DNA of 62,463 nt from a virus. The notes under the pieces are model-generated. The model did no database searches. It saw only the letters and a list, made by a program, of their open reading frames with translations, and was not told the DNA's origin. A program made the position numbers and the translations under genes. Of the stretch, positions 18,968-24,610 are shown piece after piece; within the stretch, counting starts at the first letter, position 1; every line of letters begins with the position of its first letter. The stretch is from positions 1 through 62,463 of IMG/VR virus record IMGVR_UViG_3300046780_000362. One strand, written 5' to 3'.

Positions 18968-19225
18968 ATGCAATACGTGATCGAAGTCAGAACCCCGGGC
19001 GACGCGAAGGCTACGCGATACGTGTGCGACAAGCGCGGCCGCGCACCGAGCTACGCTACGTTCGACCTCGTGTCGTCCGACGTGTGCACAGTCGCGCCCG
19101 ACATGGCGTTCGCCAAAGAAGTACGGAACGCGTTCGTGGCGTTCTGTAAGGCGCACCCCGAGACTGGGTACTCGCTCGATGGGAAGAAGATCGTGCTGGT
19201 TCCGTGGGCACGGGTGCGGCCGTGA
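18968..19225 (+). CDS. Hypothetical protein
   Basis: An 85-residue alpha/beta protein (QYVIEVRTPG...AKEVRNAFVAFCKAHPE...KKIVLVPW). First gene of an operon of nine coupled or adjacent genes. No family recognised. Confidence 0.65.
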   Translation: MQYVIEVRTPGDAKATRYVCDKRGRAPSYATFDLVSSDVCTVAPDMAFAKEVRNAFVAFCKAHPETGYSLDGKKIVLVPWARVRP

Positions 19226-19596
19226 CCCGCCTCGTGATCGCGGGCGTGCCGAAGTCGGGGAAGACGACGCTCGCGAATTCGTTCGTGCGCCCGGTGTCGC
19301 GGCACTCTGACGACTTGATCGGTGCTCGTCCATGGTCATGGGTTTCCACCGAGGTCGCCACGTGGTTCGACGCCCCCGGCCCGTGGATCATAGAAGGCGT
19401 CGCGGCAGTGCGTGCACTTCGGAAATGGCTCGTCGCGCACCCCACAGGCAAGCCGTGCGACCGCGTGATCTGGCTAGACTTCCCGTGGTTCGCACTCACT
19501 CACGGCCAGGCTACCATGGCGAAAGGCTGTCGTACCATCTGGGATGGTGTGCGCCCGGCGCTCGTGGCACGCGGCGTGCACGTGGAGGAGTCATGA
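19222..19596 (+). CDS. P-loop NTPase / small kinase
   Basis: A 124-residue protein from GTG 19222. VIAGVPKSGKTTLANSF is a Walker A (residues 8-15). VIWLDFPWFA may be the kinase Walker B/lid region. It resembles small nucleotide or adenylate-kinase-like proteins, but it is shorter than most kinases and lacks an obvious lid. The 3' end contains a sigma54-like element for the next gene. Confidence 0.7.
   Translation: MTRLVIAGVPKSGKTTLANSFVRPVSRHSDDLIGARPWSWVSTEVATWFDAPGPWIIEGVAAVRALRKWLVAHPTGKPCDRVIWLDFPWFALTHGQATMAKGCRTIWDGVRPALVARGVHVEES
19565..19581 (+). promoter_or_regulatory. Sigma54-like -24/-12 element (intragenic)
   Basis: TGGCACGCGGCGTGCAC inside the P-loop gene; the -12 C is 14 bases before ATG 19593. 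A strong GGAGGAG Shine-Dalgarno lies between, and the same bases encode the end of the upstream protein. Confidence 0.5.
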
Positions 19597-19874
19597 ACCC
19601 CGCCCTAGTCCTCGCCATTCGCTCCCACGGATTCCACACCGCTGCGGTCATGCTAGAAGGCGCGAAGACGCCCGAGCACGAATTGCTAGCGCTCCGAATG
19701 GCGCTCGCCACAATCGAGGGGGCGTCACACGTGTTACGTACGCACGCCCGCGCGTTGCGAAATACGAGCGCCGCGCACGAGCGCGGACGACTCCGCGGCC
19801 TCGAAGCGGACATTACGATCCGGCTCGGGCAACTTTTGCGGGCGGCACGGAACGTGCAACGGGAGACGGCATGA
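19593..19874 (+). CDS. Helical hypothetical protein
   Basis: A 93-residue helical protein (LRMALATIEGASHVL...ADITIRLGQLLRAA). Coupled on both sides by ATGA overlaps and preceded by GGAGGAG. Function unknown. Confidence 0.65.
   Translation: MNPALVLAIRSHGFHTAAVMLEGAKTPEHELLALRMALATIEGASHVLRTHARALRNTSAAHERGRLRGLEADITIRLGQLLRAARNVQRETA
19843..19859 (+). promoter_or_regulatory. Sigma54-like -24/-12 element (intragenic)
   Basis: CGGCACGGAACGTGCAA at the end of the preceding gene; the -12 C is 14 bases before ATG 19871. GGGAG lies between. Confidence 0.55.
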
Positions 19875-20047
19875 ACAAGAAACGCCCGACGCTCACCGGC
19901 CTCGCCCCCGCTCGCGGTGCGTGCGCCCCTACCCGCCCGGGGCTCGTCGCCCCCAGCACGTACCGCGAGGGGCCTCGCCCCGCCGAACAGGTGATTGCCG
20001 CTTACACCGAACGCGTAGCGCTCCCGCGGCGTCGGGTGATCGCGTGA
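19871..20047 (+). CDS. 58-residue basic protein
   Basis: A short Pro/Arg/Ala-rich protein (KKRPTLTGLAPARGA...VALPRRR). ATGA overlap upstream, GTGA overlap downstream. Function unknown. Confidence 0.55.
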   Translation: MNKKRPTLTGLAPARGACAPTRPGLVAPSTYREGPRPAEQVIAAYTERVALPRRRVIA

Positions 20048-20253
20048 GTTGGTTCGAGCGGTACGATCTCGAGATCCTTGTTGCGCTCGTGATCGCCGCG
20101 GTGCTCGCGAGTGCTGTGTTCGGAGTGTGGGACCACGTGACGTGCGCGGAACGCGGACCCCCGCGCCAGGAAATGCAATACGTTTCGTGTGGCGATAACT
20201 GCCACATGTGGATGCCTGTAACCGTTTCGGATTGCGTCCGGAGAAAACCATGA
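20044..20253 (+). CDS. Small membrane protein
   Basis: A 69-residue protein from GTG 20044 with one transmembrane helix (LEILVALVIAAVLASAVFGV), then a Cys-containing polar domain (YVSCGDNCHMWMP). Coupled on both sides. Membrane location is clear, role unknown. Confidence 0.65.
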   Translation: MSWFERYDLEILVALVIAAVLASAVFGVWDHVTCAERGPPRQEMQYVSCGDNCHMWMPVTVSDCVRRKP

Positions 20254-20417
20254 ACCAGTCACACCGACCCGCACCCAAGTTCTCGAACCCCGGGCGTCGC
20301 GCCCGCTTCTCGTTCATCACGCGCGACAAGGAAGGCAACGCCGTACGCGAGTGGCACCGCGAGATCCCCGTGGACGCGGCGCAGAGCAAGTCCCTTCGGG
20401 GAATGGTGCGGCCGTAG
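20250..20417 (+). CDS. 55-residue basic protein
   Basis: Small basic protein (KFSNPGRRARFSFITRDKEG). ATGA overlap with the upstream gene; the next gene starts right after its stop. Function unknown. Confidence 0.55.
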   Translation: MNQSHRPAPKFSNPGRRARFSFITRDKEGNAVREWHREIPVDAAQSKSLRGMVRP

Positions 20418-20750
20418 ATGACCCACACCACCGACACCACGGACGCGGACGCGCTCGCGAACATCCGGAATCCGGACTCGCGACGCGCGTTCGTGGCGCT
20501 GTACAATGACATGCGCGCCGCACGCCGCGCCTCCGGGCGCGTCGCGCGTAGCGCGCTCGCCCTCGCCTTCGTCGCCCCGATCATTCTGCGCAAGGCCGAG
20601 ACGGACGGACACCCGCCCGACGGGTGGACCAAAGTCATGATCTTGAACCACCTCCTCGCACAAGCAAACGGAACGTGGTGGGCCCCGGACGAGGTCGTGA
20701 CCGCGCTCGCGGACGCGCGGTGTTACGTACGGCCGACGGTGTCCGCGTGA
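20418..20750 (+). CDS. Hypothetical helical protein
   Basis: A 110-residue protein with an acidic start (MTHTTDTTDADAL), basic middle helices and a WTKVMILNHLLAQANGTWWA segment. Coupled to the next gene by GTGA. Function unknown. Confidence 0.65.
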   Translation: MTHTTDTTDADALANIRNPDSRRAFVALYNDMRAARRASGRVARSALALAFVAPIILRKAETDGHPPDGWTKVMILNHLLAQANGTWWAPDEVVTALADARCYVRPTVSA

Positions 20751-20953
20751 GGCCCACCTCGGTCACGGTCGACATCAAGCGAGATCGTATGTACACCGGA
20801 TATTCAGAACCGCGTGGAGCATCCGTTACCATCGTTCTGGACTGTACCACTGAAGAGGCGGAGCTGTGTTACGACATGGTCTCACAGTGGCTATGCCGCG
20901 CGGAATCAGAAGACGAGCGGATGGCACGGACCATGCAACGTACCAAGGTATGA
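20747..20953 (+). CDS. Small hypothetical protein
   Basis: A 68-residue protein with a beta-rich first half (TSVTVDIKRDRMYTGYSEPR) and an acidic helix. Its last codons contain the sigma54-like element at 20922, and its stop overlaps the ATG of the lipoprotein gene. Confidence 0.55.
   Translation: MRPTSVTVDIKRDRMYTGYSEPRGASVTIVLDCTTEEAELCYDMVSQWLCRAESEDERMARTMQRTKV
20922..20938 (+). promoter_or_regulatory. Sigma54-like -24/-12 element
   Basis: TGGCACGGACCATGCAA; the -12 C is 14 bases before ATG 20950. AAGG lies just before the ATG. Confidence 0.6.
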
Positions 20954-21750
20954 AAAGCACCATGACCCGCACGAGACATTCCACCGCCACGAAGCTACGT
21001 GCCGTCGACCTCCCCGAGGCGTTCGCGCTCGCGACCGTCGCCACGGCAACGCGCAAGGCGCGCAACCCGCGCGACGACCGCCGCGCGCTCAACAAGGCGC
21101 TTCGCGTGGCGGCCGTGCTCGCGACGCTCGCCTTGGAGGCGTGCGGCGGGGCTGTGGCCACGAGTCCCGCACCAACCCCGTGCGACGACTACGCGGAGCG
21201 CCTCGTCGCCGCGGGGTGCGACCTACCCTCCGATCTCGCGGTCGGTATCGACTGCCCGGCGTACACCGCCAAGATCTCCGCGTGCGCCGCGGACGCGCAG
21301 TGCGCCGACGACATGTCGGTGCGAATGATAGAGGCATGTCACGGTGCGACCCCGCCCGAGTTCGTTCTGGCGGATCCATTCGTTCGGTACGCCGAAGACG
21401 CGTGCTCGTGCGCGGACCCCGGGCCGTGTAACGTCACCGAGATCGTGACGGCGTTGCGCAACGGTACGCCCGACGTCGCGTGCGTCGACGCGTACTCCAC
21501 GGCCATGGAAGAGCGCGTGTCGTGCAACGTCGTGCCTATGCCCACGTGCGAGATCTTCCCGGGCTCCGCGGCGGAGCGTTTCGCAAAGGCCGTGTGCGCG
21601 TGCCACGCCACGAGCGGTGACATGTGGTCCGGATGCTTTGACAACGCGCTAGGAGAGGTGCGCGGCGGTGACCCGCGGTGCCTGACCCAGCTTGCGATCG
21701 GGTACGAGTCGGATTGCTCGGGGCGTAGCGGAGGGGAGTGTGCGCCGTGA
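20950..21750 (+). CDS. Cys-rich lipoprotein-like secreted protein
   Basis: A 266-residue protein. After about 43 polar residues comes a hydrophobic segment ending in a lipobox (RVAAVLATLALEAC, Cys near residue 58). The mature part holds about 18 further cysteines, many in CxxxxxxC and CxC spacing (CSCADPGPC, CACHATSGDMWSGC), suggesting disulfide bonding outside the cytoplasm. The long segment before the signal is odd; translation may begin further in. Such Cys-rich lipoproteins are common in myxobacteria, so it may be a host-derived cargo gene acting at the envelope. Confidence 0.65.
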   Translation: MKSTMTRTRHSTATKLRAVDLPEAFALATVATATRKARNPRDDRRALNKALRVAAVLATLALEACGGAVATSPAPTPCDDYAERLVAAGCDLPSDLAVGIDCPAYTAKISACAADAQCADDMSVRMIEACHGATPPEFVLADPFVRYAEDACSCADPGPCNVTEIVTALRNGTPDVACVDAYSTAMEERVSCNVVPMPTCEIFPGSAAERFAKAVCACHATSGDMWSGCFDNALGEVRGGDPRCLTQLAIGYESDCSGRSGGECAP

Positions 21751-22040
21751 GAAGTATAGAAGATTGCGAGGTCTTGATCGGTGAGATCGTGGTCGCGCTT
21801 CGGGCCAGCCGTGTAAGCGTGGAGCAAGCCCGACAAGAGGCCGAACAAAAGTGCCCTAGCCCACTCCTTCCGGATAACGAGGAAACGTACAACGTGCAGG
21901 GCCGCGCGTATGAAGACGCACTAAGCCATGTGTCACTTGTTAAAGCCGCCAGCAAAGAGCTGCAAACGTGCCTCACGAACGCGCGCGCAGAGCTCGTGGC
22001 AGTGCGTGCATATTTGGCCGCGGGCGGTAGGTTCTCATGA
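21747..22040 (+). CDS. Helical hypothetical protein
   Basis: A 97-residue, mostly helical protein with three Cys (EDCEVLIGEIVVALRASRVS...KELQTCLTNARAEL). GTG start overlapping the lipoprotein stop; ATGA overlap with the next small frame. Function unknown. Confidence 0.6.
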   Translation: MRSIEDCEVLIGEIVVALRASRVSVEQARQEAEQKCPSPLLPDNEETYNVQGRAYEDALSHVSLVKAASKELQTCLTNARAELVAVRAYLAAGGRFS

Positions 22041-22105
22041 AACTCCGCGACTACGAAACCCGCGCCGTCCGCAACGTGCCCGCGCTCCACGGCACGGCGT
22101 GGTAA
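22037..22105 (+). CDS. 22-residue peptide at the edge of repeat array 1
   Basis: ATGA-coupled frame (MKLRDYETRAVRNVPALHG...) whose stop falls at the first unit of the pentamer array. It may be the remnant of a gene interrupted by the array. Confidence 0.35.
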   Translation: MKLRDYETRAVRNVPALHGTAW

Positions 22106-22285
22106 GGCATGTTTTGGTCCGGCCAGGCAAGGCACTCCAGGGTTCGGCATGGCGCGGTCAGGTCAGGCGAGGCACGGCAAGGCGCGGCAAGGCACTCCAT
22201 GGTCAGGCAAGGCACGGCCGGGTTGGGCGCGACGGGGCAAGGCACACCAGGGCATGGCCAGGCGCGATAAGGCCGGGCATGGCAC
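22101..22285. repeat. Pentanucleotide-period array 1 (GG every 5 bases)
   Basis: From 22101 to 22282 the dinucleotide GG recurs every 5 bases in unbroken register (about 37 units of the form GGYNN). It is interrupted only where a CACTCC or CACACC motif replaces one GG, at 22133, 22193 and 22243 (60 and 50 bases apart). GT or GA replaces GG at three other units. The plus strand is G-rich and could form two-tier G-quadruplexes. No gene is credible inside it. Confidence 0.9.
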
Positions 22286-22356
22286 CCCCAAAATACTTTC
22301 GTAACTTATTCACGTAATACAGCCGCGGTCAAAGTACCGCAGAAGAGACACGTCAA

Positions 22357-22917
22357 ATGCAAACGTTCAAAGCAACGCTCACGGGTACGGCACCGCTCAT
22401 CATGCACAACGAACGCCTCGCGAACCCGCGCGACCCGCATACGCGGGCGCTGAAAGAACTCACGTCCGTTCGAAGCAAGACGGACGAGGTACTTGCTGAC
22501 ATTCAAAAAACCGAGTGGCGCGGAGGGCTGTACGAGTTCAACAAGCGCGCCGTCGTCCCCGCGGCGAACGTGCTCGCGTGCATCAAAGAGGGCGCGCGTA
22601 AGTTGAAGCAGGGGAAGGCGATCGCGTCCAGCGTGTTCTCGCTCGATGCGTTTTACGTGCTCACGTACGACGGCCCGACGGACTTCGAGGCGTTGTACGA
22701 TGACGGTCGTTTCTCCGACTATCGTTCCGTTGGCGTGAACCAGTCGCGCGTGATGCGCTCGCGCCCGATCTTTCCGGAGTGGTCGATCAAGATCTCGCTC
22801 GAGTTCGACGCGGACGTGGTGACTCCCGAAGTGCTTTCGCAGTCGCTCGACATTGCCGGCCGGCAGATCGGCCTCTGCGATCACCGTCCGCAATACGGCC
22901 GGTTCGTGGTGTCGTGA
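22357..22917 (+). CDS. RAMP/Cas7-like phage protein of unknown function
   Basis: A 186-residue protein. The pattern TAPLIMHNERLANP...GGLYEFN...VVPAANVLACIKEGARKLK...YDGP...RSRPIFPEW...DHRPQYGRF matches a family common in phages. Its layout (N-terminal beta hairpin, a middle helix with a P...I/L.xxxxGARxxK element, and a C-terminal Gly/Arg RPxxGRF loop) resembles RAMP-fold RNA-binding proteins; that fold is my inference. It has AAGAGA as a possible Shine-Dalgarno. It lies between the two pentamer repeat arrays. Confidence 0.7.
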   Translation: MQTFKATLTGTAPLIMHNERLANPRDPHTRALKELTSVRSKTDEVLADIQKTEWRGGLYEFNKRAVVPAANVLACIKEGARKLKQGKAIASSVFSLDAFYVLTYDGPTDFEALYDDGRFSDYRSVGVNQSRVMRSRPIFPEWSIKISLEFDADVVTPEVLSQSLDIAGRQIGLCDHRPQYGRFVVS

Positions 22918-23354
22918 TGGACGGCGGTGACGCACCGGTGCGACCGTGCCGGATCGAACTGCTCGCGAAGGGGCAGTACCTCCCGCCCGGCTACCTCGAG
23001 CACCGCTGGCGCCTCGTGCGTCAGACGCAAGCGTACCAGCTGCAGATGCGCGCATTGATCGATCGCATCCGAAGTGAACGCCCAGATCTCGCCGCACACG
23101 TGCGACAGGATCGCGACGGGATCCGTATCATGGAAGATCTCGAAGCGGACACGTACGATCACGATCGGCGGAGAATTCTCGTGCGACAACTTCGACGGTC
23201 GGCGAAACGTCGCGCGTCGATCGACCGTGCAAAGTTCTCGGCCGAGAGCCGTCGCGCGGCGGAGAACGAGGATCAAGTTGCGTCGGCGATCGCGGGGTCG
23301 TGTTCCGCGGCTGTGCGAGCTGCACGCCGCAAGCGATTGTTCGACGGCGATTGA
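22917..23354 (+). CDS. Basic hypothetical protein between repeat arrays
   Basis: A 145-residue Arg-rich helical protein (LVRQLRRSAKRRASIDRAKF). Start ATG 22917 overlaps the RAMP-like stop (TGATG); GTG 22914 is an alternative. Its charge suggests nucleic-acid binding. It and the RAMP-like gene form a two-gene cassette between arrays. Confidence 0.65.
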   Translation: MDGGDAPVRPCRIELLAKGQYLPPGYLEHRWRLVRQTQAYQLQMRALIDRIRSERPDLAAHVRQDRDGIRIMEDLEADTYDHDRRRILVRQLRRSAKRRASIDRAKFSAESRRAAENEDQVASAIAGSCSAAVRAARRKRLFDGD

Positions 23355-23383
23355 GTTTCGCCCCGGGGCTGGGCTATTTCCCC

Positions 23384-23916
23384 GGTTGGGCCCGGTAGGG
23401 CATGTCGGGGCGCGGCATGGCAGGGTTTGGCACTCCAGGGCTTGGCGCGGCAGGGCAAGGTGAGGTCTGTCGCGGCTGTGGTCGGGCAAGGCACTCTTTG
23501 GTACGGCGAGGTTGGGCCCGGTAGGTCTGGGTCGGGCGCGGCGAGGTTGGGCAAGGCACTCCGGGGCTAGGCGAGGCATGGCGCGGCCGGATGAGGCATG
23601 GCCCGGCAAGGCACTCCATGGTGAGGCGAGTCTAGGTCAGGCGCGGCGAGGTCTGGTTTGGCGAGGTCAGGCAGGGCACTCCGCGGTACGGTCTGGCTGG
23701 GCCCGGTAAGGTTGGGTTTGGCGCGGCGTGGCGTGGCACTCCGTGGCCCGGTTCGGCCCGGCGGGGCGGGGCGAGGCCTGGCGAGGCAAGGCACTCCATG
23801 GTTGGGCGAGTTCAGGCTGGGCACGGCTGGGCGCGGCTAGGTGTGGCGGGGCGCGGCATGGCGCTCCTCGGCGAGGCAAGGTTTGGCCGGGCGAGATCGG
23901 GCGAGGCCAGGCAAGT
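23384..23916. repeat. Pentanucleotide-period array 2 (GG every 5 bases)
   Basis: About 105 units of GGYNN in one register, with a single +1 slip near 23479. CACTCC-type motifs punctuate it at 23431, 23492, 23557, 23612, 23677, 23737, 23792 and (CGCTCC) 23862. Spacings are 61, 65, 55, 65, 60, 55 and 70, all multiples of five apart from the slip. GGCAAGGCACTCC is the commonest extended motif. All frames stay open because 5 bases make a 5-codon repeat, so the ORFs here are artefacts. Confidence 0.9.
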
Positions 23917-23923
23917 TCTGAAA

Positions 23924-23939
23924 TGGCACGCGGTTTGCT
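23924..23939 (+). promoter_or_regulatory. Sigma54-like element with canonical TTGC, just after array 2
   Basis: TGGCACGCGGTTTGCT, an excellent consensus match 8 bases after the array ends. The predicted start (about 23950) is 20 bases before GTG 23970. Confidence 0.6.
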
Positions 23940-23969
23940 TCATTGCAGATCGCGTGCCATTGTTGCGTC

Positions 23970-24242
23970 GTGGCAAAAGACGCACTCGACGCACCCACCC
24001 CGCCCGTTGAACCGACCCGCCTCGAATCGCTCCGCGCGCGTCTGAAAGAAGTAGCGCCGGCCGTCAAGGTCGAGCGCCGGCCCGCCACCGCGGACACCGA
24101 GAAGGAGCCAGGCTCGAAGGCATGCGTGCTCGCCTCGTGGGGGCGCCATCGTGTCTCCGACGTTGCCGAGCAAGGTCGTGATCTCGATGCGTGCGAGTGC
24201 CGCGTGATCGCGGTCGTGATCGCGCATCACGAGGCATCGTGA
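23970..24242 (+). CDS. Hypothetical protein
   Basis: A 90-residue protein from GTG 23970 (an upstream TTG is possible). Pro-rich start, then a charged helix (LESLRARLKEVAPAVKVERR) and a CVLASWGRH/CECRV core. Coupled to the next gene by GTGA. Confidence 0.6.
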   Translation: MAKDALDAPTPPVEPTRLESLRARLKEVAPAVKVERRPATADTEKEPGSKACVLASWGRHRVSDVAEQGRDLDACECRVIAVVIAHHEAS

Positions 24243-24610
24243 GCTTGCCCGAGCACATTGCGCGGCGCGTACGACGCGACCCGTCTTTGATCCCGCTTCG
24301 GCTCGAACACTTCGCGCCGAACGAGATCCTTTTCCGCGCGGTGCCGAACGTCGAACACGGCACGCTGTGCGCCGCGTTCGGGCTCGACCCCGTCACGTTT
24401 TGGTTCGATGTTCCTGAATCCTTCCGGCGCGAGGGCTCGCAACGCGCGGGGCTCTCCGCGTCGCGTCGCGAGATCAGTGGCTTCGTGTTCCGTGGACCGA
24501 AGGGTAGCAACCCGGTCGCCAAGCTTTCGGTGTGTCGCGAGGGCGACAAGTTCCGTGATAGGGACCCCATGTCGCGCGCTGACTTCGAACGCCTCGGAGA
24601 GACGTTGTGA
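24239..24610 (+). CDS. Hypothetical protein
   Basis: A 123-residue protein from GTG 24239 (GTGA overlap). Basic alpha/beta composition; PVTFWFDVPESFRREGSQ is distinctive. No family recognised. Confidence 0.6.
   Translation: MSLPEHIARRVRRDPSLIPLRLEHFAPNEILFRAVPNVEHGTLCAAFGLDPVTFWFDVPESFRREGSQRAGLSASRREISGFVFRGPKGSNPVAKLSVCREGDKFRDRDPMSRADFERLGETL

Follow-up and report, generated by a model that had tools for sequence, protein, structure and literature searches.

Two GGYNN arrays flanking a vipr gene in a phage genome probably form a compactly built VIPR guide-RNA locus

Two arrays of degenerate 5-base units in a viral genome very probably represent the guide-RNA (vrRNA) arrays of a phage VIPR system, judging from sequence comparison and a predicted protein fold. 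The window, i.e. the whole 62,463-base stretch analysed, comes from IMG/VR as a virus record and encodes terminase, portal, protease, capsid and tail proteins. VIPR, a phage relative of CRISPR described in a preprint made public in April 2026 and claimed there as a phage ancestor of CRISPR effectors, relies on an ancestral RAMP protein whose bound RNAs alternate GGY with NN, and double-stranded DNA is read via the NN letters with a one-base skip (PMC13142463). As described, its minimal locus consists of vipr and one vap flanked by guide RNAs, and a vrRNA comprises 9–16 tandem YNNGG (GGY/NN) repeats with hypervariable NN; the characterised type II vrRNAs each carry an invariable structured 3' tail, and other array architectures exist that are staggered with overlapping vrRNAs or interspersed with ribozymes (PMC13142463). 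VIPR is a known system, of which the window locus is a further, compactly built member with these features:

22091..22288, + strand: array 1, GGYNN array of about 4 candidate guide RNAs (vrRNAs), ending in GGCACCCC
22131..22138, + strand: GGCACTCC punctuation, first of 12 marks, the putative 3' border of each guide
22357..22917, + strand: vipr, 186 aa, RAMP-family, predicted guide-RNA-binding (phmmer, PHROG, fold)
22917..23354, + strand: vap1-like gene, 145 aa, overlapping the vipr stop codon (iterated profile search)
23384..23914, + strand: array 2, GGYNN array of about 9 candidate guide RNAs, with one 1-base slip near 23475
23922..23962, + strand: long hairpin directly 3' of array 2 (-29.2 kcal/mol, z = -6.2 vs shuffles)

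An earlier note on this DNA had described two arrays that keep GG in 5-base register, and these are real. GG falls in one 5-base phase in 31 of ~38 units of array 1, compared with 10.1 +/- 1.9 (maximum 16) in 1000 first-order Markov shuffles, and in 75 of 106 units of array 2 despite the slip, compared with 28.9 +/- 3.3 (maximum 40). Identity within the arrays is 0.50–0.56 at lags 5, 10, 15 and further multiples of 5 and 0.15–0.34 at other lags; nothing else in the 62,463 bases resembles them when both strands are scanned in 100-bp windows (best window 9/20 outside versus 19/20 inside). Their location was given correctly, although they start a few bases earlier than stated and end near 22288 and 23914. 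The note's remark that the three remaining positions vary freely is apt for positions 4 and 5, where all 16 NN dinucleotides occur near-randomly, but not for position 3, where 80 of the 107 GG units have C, 27 have T and none has a purine. Information per unit position is 2.0, 2.0, 1.19, 0.08 and 0.08 bits. Given an invariable C or T at position 3 and ~0.08 bits at each of positions 4 and 5, the true repeat unit is GGYNN, not GGNNN. Roughly a quarter of the array units lack an in-phase GG, many of these being the regular marks. Between marks lie 7–11 units in the guides of array 1, where A1, A3 and A4 are short and irregular, and mostly 9–13 in those of array 2. The arrays are, as the note had it, neither a microsatellite nor a CRISPR: repeat tools found no CRISPR repeat/spacer array, only degenerate 5-base units in place of identical repeats with contiguous spacers. 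Rfam, Pfam and PADLOC contain no model for these parts of the cassette.

The decisive clue is the vipr gene between the arrays, where the earlier note had overlooked both genes. Its product matches PDB 36pp_D, 'SUSP1 Vipr protein', over residues 4–185 (phmmer E=8.3e-27), this chain D being one solved structure matched, as well as PHROG 4652, function not assigned (E=7.7e-47); no Pfam or PADLOC match was obtained for it. The AlphaFold2 model (pLDDT 94.9) folds like a Csm3/Cas7 RAMP protein, in that the top 12 PDB matches in Foldseek are all CRISPR Csm/Cas7 chains (E 4.9e-5 to Csm). The window Vipr also keeps the family's invariant residues, ten among 22 Viprs including that of SUSP1. For the protein in the vap position, single-sequence BLASTP against SUSP1 vap1 gave nothing. 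An iterated profile search from the same 145-aa protein converges on the ORFs that immediately follow vipr genes and reaches SUSP1 vap1 (E=1.6e-33 after iteration). By profile similarity the gene at 22917..23354 belongs to the SUSP1 vap1 family, and its product is probably an accessory protein that binds DNA.

The same array pattern recurs in other viruses, with at least 120 IMG/VR loci recovered by a DNA search for nothing but nine GGY units in succession. Among the matches listed, an iterated HMM built from the window Vipr finds Vipr encoded in 90 of 120 GGYNN loci, on the strand of the array in 88 of these 90 and at a median distance of 78 bp, compared with 0 of 60 control contigs fetched with unrelated patterns. 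Because this blind DNA search recovers Vipr, the array–Vipr link does not stem from the method by which the preprint's loci were found; running from array to protein, the reverse direction, it lends the link independent support. Such frequent company of an RNA-binding RAMP protein gene counts against the packaging or origin site, the G-quadruplex and the RNA decoy that the note had entertained. Its further idea of a protein-coating scaffold comes close to a Vipr-coated guide RNA, with the coat on RNA. The available sequence of 30 of the 120 contigs among the matches listed (e.g. L012, L013, L118 and L119) holds no Vipr; some of these stretches are truncated, those of L013, L026 and L034 are long, and in L119 the period is 10 bases. 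These loci could have distant Viprs, could be arrays acting in trans, or could be other repeats.

Membership in VIPR is supported by the protein, the accessory gene, the repeat unit, the order and the strand, as the window combines a Vipr protein, GGY/NN repeats and the minimal locus order with carriage by a phage or provirus. Expression, binding and targeting at this locus would follow the characterised relative, the type II system of Escherichia phage SUSP1 (PMC13142463, KT454805). SUSP1 shares the GGY/NN repeats, a Vipr 34% identical to that of the window over its whole length, a vap1-family gene directly 3' of vipr, and guide RNAs that flank the pair on one strand, so that its order guide RNA–vipr–vap1–guide RNAs is the array–vipr–vap–array of the window. 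However, each of the four ~100-nt SUSP1 vrRNAs has a structured tail of its own, whereas the window has ~13 guides head to tail, and a GGCACTCC-type mark every 40–70 bases where SUSP1 has a tail. VIPR-like loci found in the present analysis in Pseudomonas phage LESphi2, Gordonia phage MakoManhole and Mycobacterium phage LittleE encode Viprs 39–41% identical to the window's, and have GGYNN tracts and a vap1-family gene adjoining vipr, but structured tails of roughly 40–60 nt stand between their tracts. CRISPR-Cas class 1, with its Csm3/Cas7 backbone, resembles the window in the RAMP fold and in having many guides per array; in contrast, the window has no repeats with contiguous spacers, and its guide letters are discontinuous, two in five. 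Since the structured 3' tail carried by every characterised type II vrRNA is not found between the window guides, the locus is classed as VIPR, its proteins type-II-like and its array compact, rather than as textbook type II.

Twelve marks of the GGCACTCC type start at 22131, 22191, 22241, 22281, 23429, 23490, 23555, 23610, 23675, 23735, 23790 and 23860, with the variants GGCACTCT, GGCACACC, GGCACCCC and GGCGCTCC. They are spaced by 60, 50 and 40 bases in array 1 and by 61, 65, 55, 65, 60, 55 and 70 in array 2, all multiples of 5 except one, so the 5-base register is usually kept. The note had counted 11 such CACTCC-type motifs at 50–70 bases; the multiples of five stand with that one exception, but the count is 12 and the spacing 40–70. 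We read each mark as the border of a guide. GGCAA, GGCAT and GGCAG are enriched in the last units before tract ends across Vipr loci (the GGCAG count deriving partly from 4-base GGCA units), and for this reason GGCAA-GGCAC-TCC in the window looks like the usual 3' border minus its tail; a GGCAA-GGCA(C/G/A) border is likewise over-represented at tract ends in other Vipr loci. As a structured tail of the SUSP1 type is absent between the guides of both arrays, the exact guide ends and guide processing here are guesses. The hairpin at 23922..23962 is probably the transcript end or the sole structured tail; it has no T-run and is therefore omitted by a terminator scan.

Compact arrays are not peculiar to the window. 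Of the Vipr loci among the matches listed, 59 had at least two measured gaps between tracts, and the median gap is 15 bases or less in 28 of them; in the pooled gaps of these matches, 81 of 154 are 4 modulo 5, the commonest short-gap class and one that shifts the register. Lineage-specific marks of 4–9 nt are common in other loci and stand in for structured tails. For example, most guides in L008, L025, L060, L108, L112 and L114 resemble those of the window in lacking long tails and being separated by a short constant mark, namely GGACTTTAG in L008, GGCGTTCAG in L025, GGCACCGCA in L060, GGCTAATG in L112 (a GGTNN-rich version) and the 4-base unit GGCA in L108 and L114. Most of these marks shift the register, whereas that of the window keeps it. 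The compact variant of the window was possibly undescribed before; because the preprint mentions staggered, overlapping vrRNAs (PMC13142463), we do not claim the array architecture as new. Tentatively, and with less than even confidence, we suggest that tail-less VIPR arrays are a distinct guide architecture, in which a lineage mark (here an in-register change of GGYNN to TCCNN) replaces the tail and allows continuous coating, the guides being released or read overlapping, and in which some guides target terminase genes of rivals. As a separate observation, tails that follow GGYNN tracts in loci of Gordonia and Mycobacterium phages (L138:2980-3140, L139:4200-4400, L039) resemble minihelices of tRNA acceptor and T-arm and carry the T-loop consensus UUCRANY, a hint that tRNA-maturing enzymes may process them; under a strict acceptor criterion, only 2 minihelix sites lie near tracts versus 1 elsewhere in 0.9 Mb.

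We postulate that the arrays are transcribed from the + strand, probably with or beside vipr and vap, and that the RNA would be cut or read into guides of ~7–12 GGYNN units, each ending at a GGCAA-GGCAC-TCC-type mark. By homology and fold, Vipr subunits, perhaps one per 5-nt unit, would coat this RNA, keeping GGY unpaired and exposing the two N bases; NN-based recognition was shown for SUSP1 (PMC13142463). The row of NN dinucleotides would pair with double-stranded DNA as NNxNNxNN, one base being skipped, which in genes would tend to be the codon wobble base. Binding may then repress genes of competing phages or prophages, strengthened by Vap1, as both repression and strengthening were shown for SUSP1 (PMC13142463). 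The window VIPR, found from sequence alone and probably in a myxobacterial-type phage, suggests that closely packed guides can do without structured tails, a point relevant to guide production and to the minimum size of a system for programmable DNA binding.

Guides were scored at skips 0–3 against the window, two sister phages and Myxococcus phage Mx4, and none rose above shuffled guides; there is no self-target at skip 1 in the window, the sole perfect match (skip 3) being the array itself. Matches in IMG/VR to 16-base gapped seeds of B6, B8, B5, B3 and A2 do not extend like true targets, and in 379 genomes from the phylum of a Myxococcales MAG, B8, B6, B5 and B3 gave 2-mismatch matches only, in a number compatible with chance. 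The best partial matches of B8 and B3 are to genes for the terminase large subunit or its close homologs (L156-L158, L162, L163, L165, L262). Read antisense with the skip at the wobble base, B8 (23795-23860) decodes to [IM]APTYA[QH]V[QH][CW]S[QH], a terminase-like motif; its seed has 10 distinct IMG/VR sites, 7 of which are antisense and in codon phase, the skipped base falling on the wobble position; 6 of these 7 contain the terminase motif APTYA[QH]V. Three of these six proteins when checked are terminase large subunits belonging to more than one PHROG profile, the other three having near-identical motifs. B3 (23495-23555), read in sense with the skip at wobble, decodes to [FL]T[DE]CP[SR]CRA, and its best site, in another terminase, matches the first ten NN exactly. 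Since the B8 matches end at the seed and the B3 match ends before the end of the guide, these sites are at best relatives of targets, and terminase targeting by B8 and B3 is a lead that is suggestive only.

A decayed, defunct VIPR locus, with units lost from array 1 and from parts of array 2, would accommodate this lack of a target together with the quarter of units without in-phase GG, the slip in array 2 and the short, irregular guides A1, A3 and A4. However, vipr and vap are intact, many of the non-GG units are the regular marks, and other guides have 10–12 clean units; we therefore consider decay unlikely.

The phage itself combines a Mu-like head module (DUF935-type portal and head maturation protease) with a contractile tail, and it encodes a DNA polymerase and an exonuclease of its own. 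Its closest named phage is Mx4 (35%). The portal protein as a single query found no genome relative, and with an alignment as query its best genome match is the Myxococcales MAG (38%). At these levels of similarity the host is no more than probable, and would be a myxobacterium. Vipr is encoded in 3 of the 379 sampled genomes from the phylum of that MAG. The cassette lies in a region of ~5 kb (19277-24271) between the terminase and head genes, the matching stretch being ~0.7 kb in L203, one of two IMG/VR sister phages (L203, L204) whose portals are 68–69% identical to that of the window. Because vipr is absent from both sisters and the L203 region is shorter, the VIPR cassette is regarded as accessory. 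This placement of the arrays, and the fact that two 5-bp units make about one helical turn, could suit a DNA element for packaging, replication origin or segregation, bound cooperatively by protein in helical register and with RNA irrelevant. Such an element is very improbable, as the arrays track the strand and position of vipr across 90 loci among the matches listed, the sisters share the head module but have no arrays in the stretches compared, and the NN positions are nearly unconstrained.

In principle, GG tracts 3 nt apart are able to form two-tier quadruplexes. As an account of the arrays, however, stacked quadruplexes in RNA or DNA acting as a decoy or regulator would leave unexplained why position 3 is invariably a pyrimidine and NN hypervariable, as well as the strict association with vipr and the punctuation, and we give this reading hardly any weight compared with guide-RNA arrays. 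Coding DNA for a repeat protein, whose 15-bp, 5-codon repeat would follow from the codon periodicity that 5-base units yield, can be dismissed almost entirely, as no reading frame runs through array 2 and lag 5 is as strong as lag 15, and an assembly artefact equally so, with the same pattern in more than 100 other contigs. Frame scan, repeat tools and lag analysis together rule out repeat-protein, microsatellite and CRISPR readings.

Upstream of the cassette, positions 19204-19596 encode a small P-loop protein (GVPKSGKTTLA) that is also present in L203 and has weak AAA or kinase-like profile matches.
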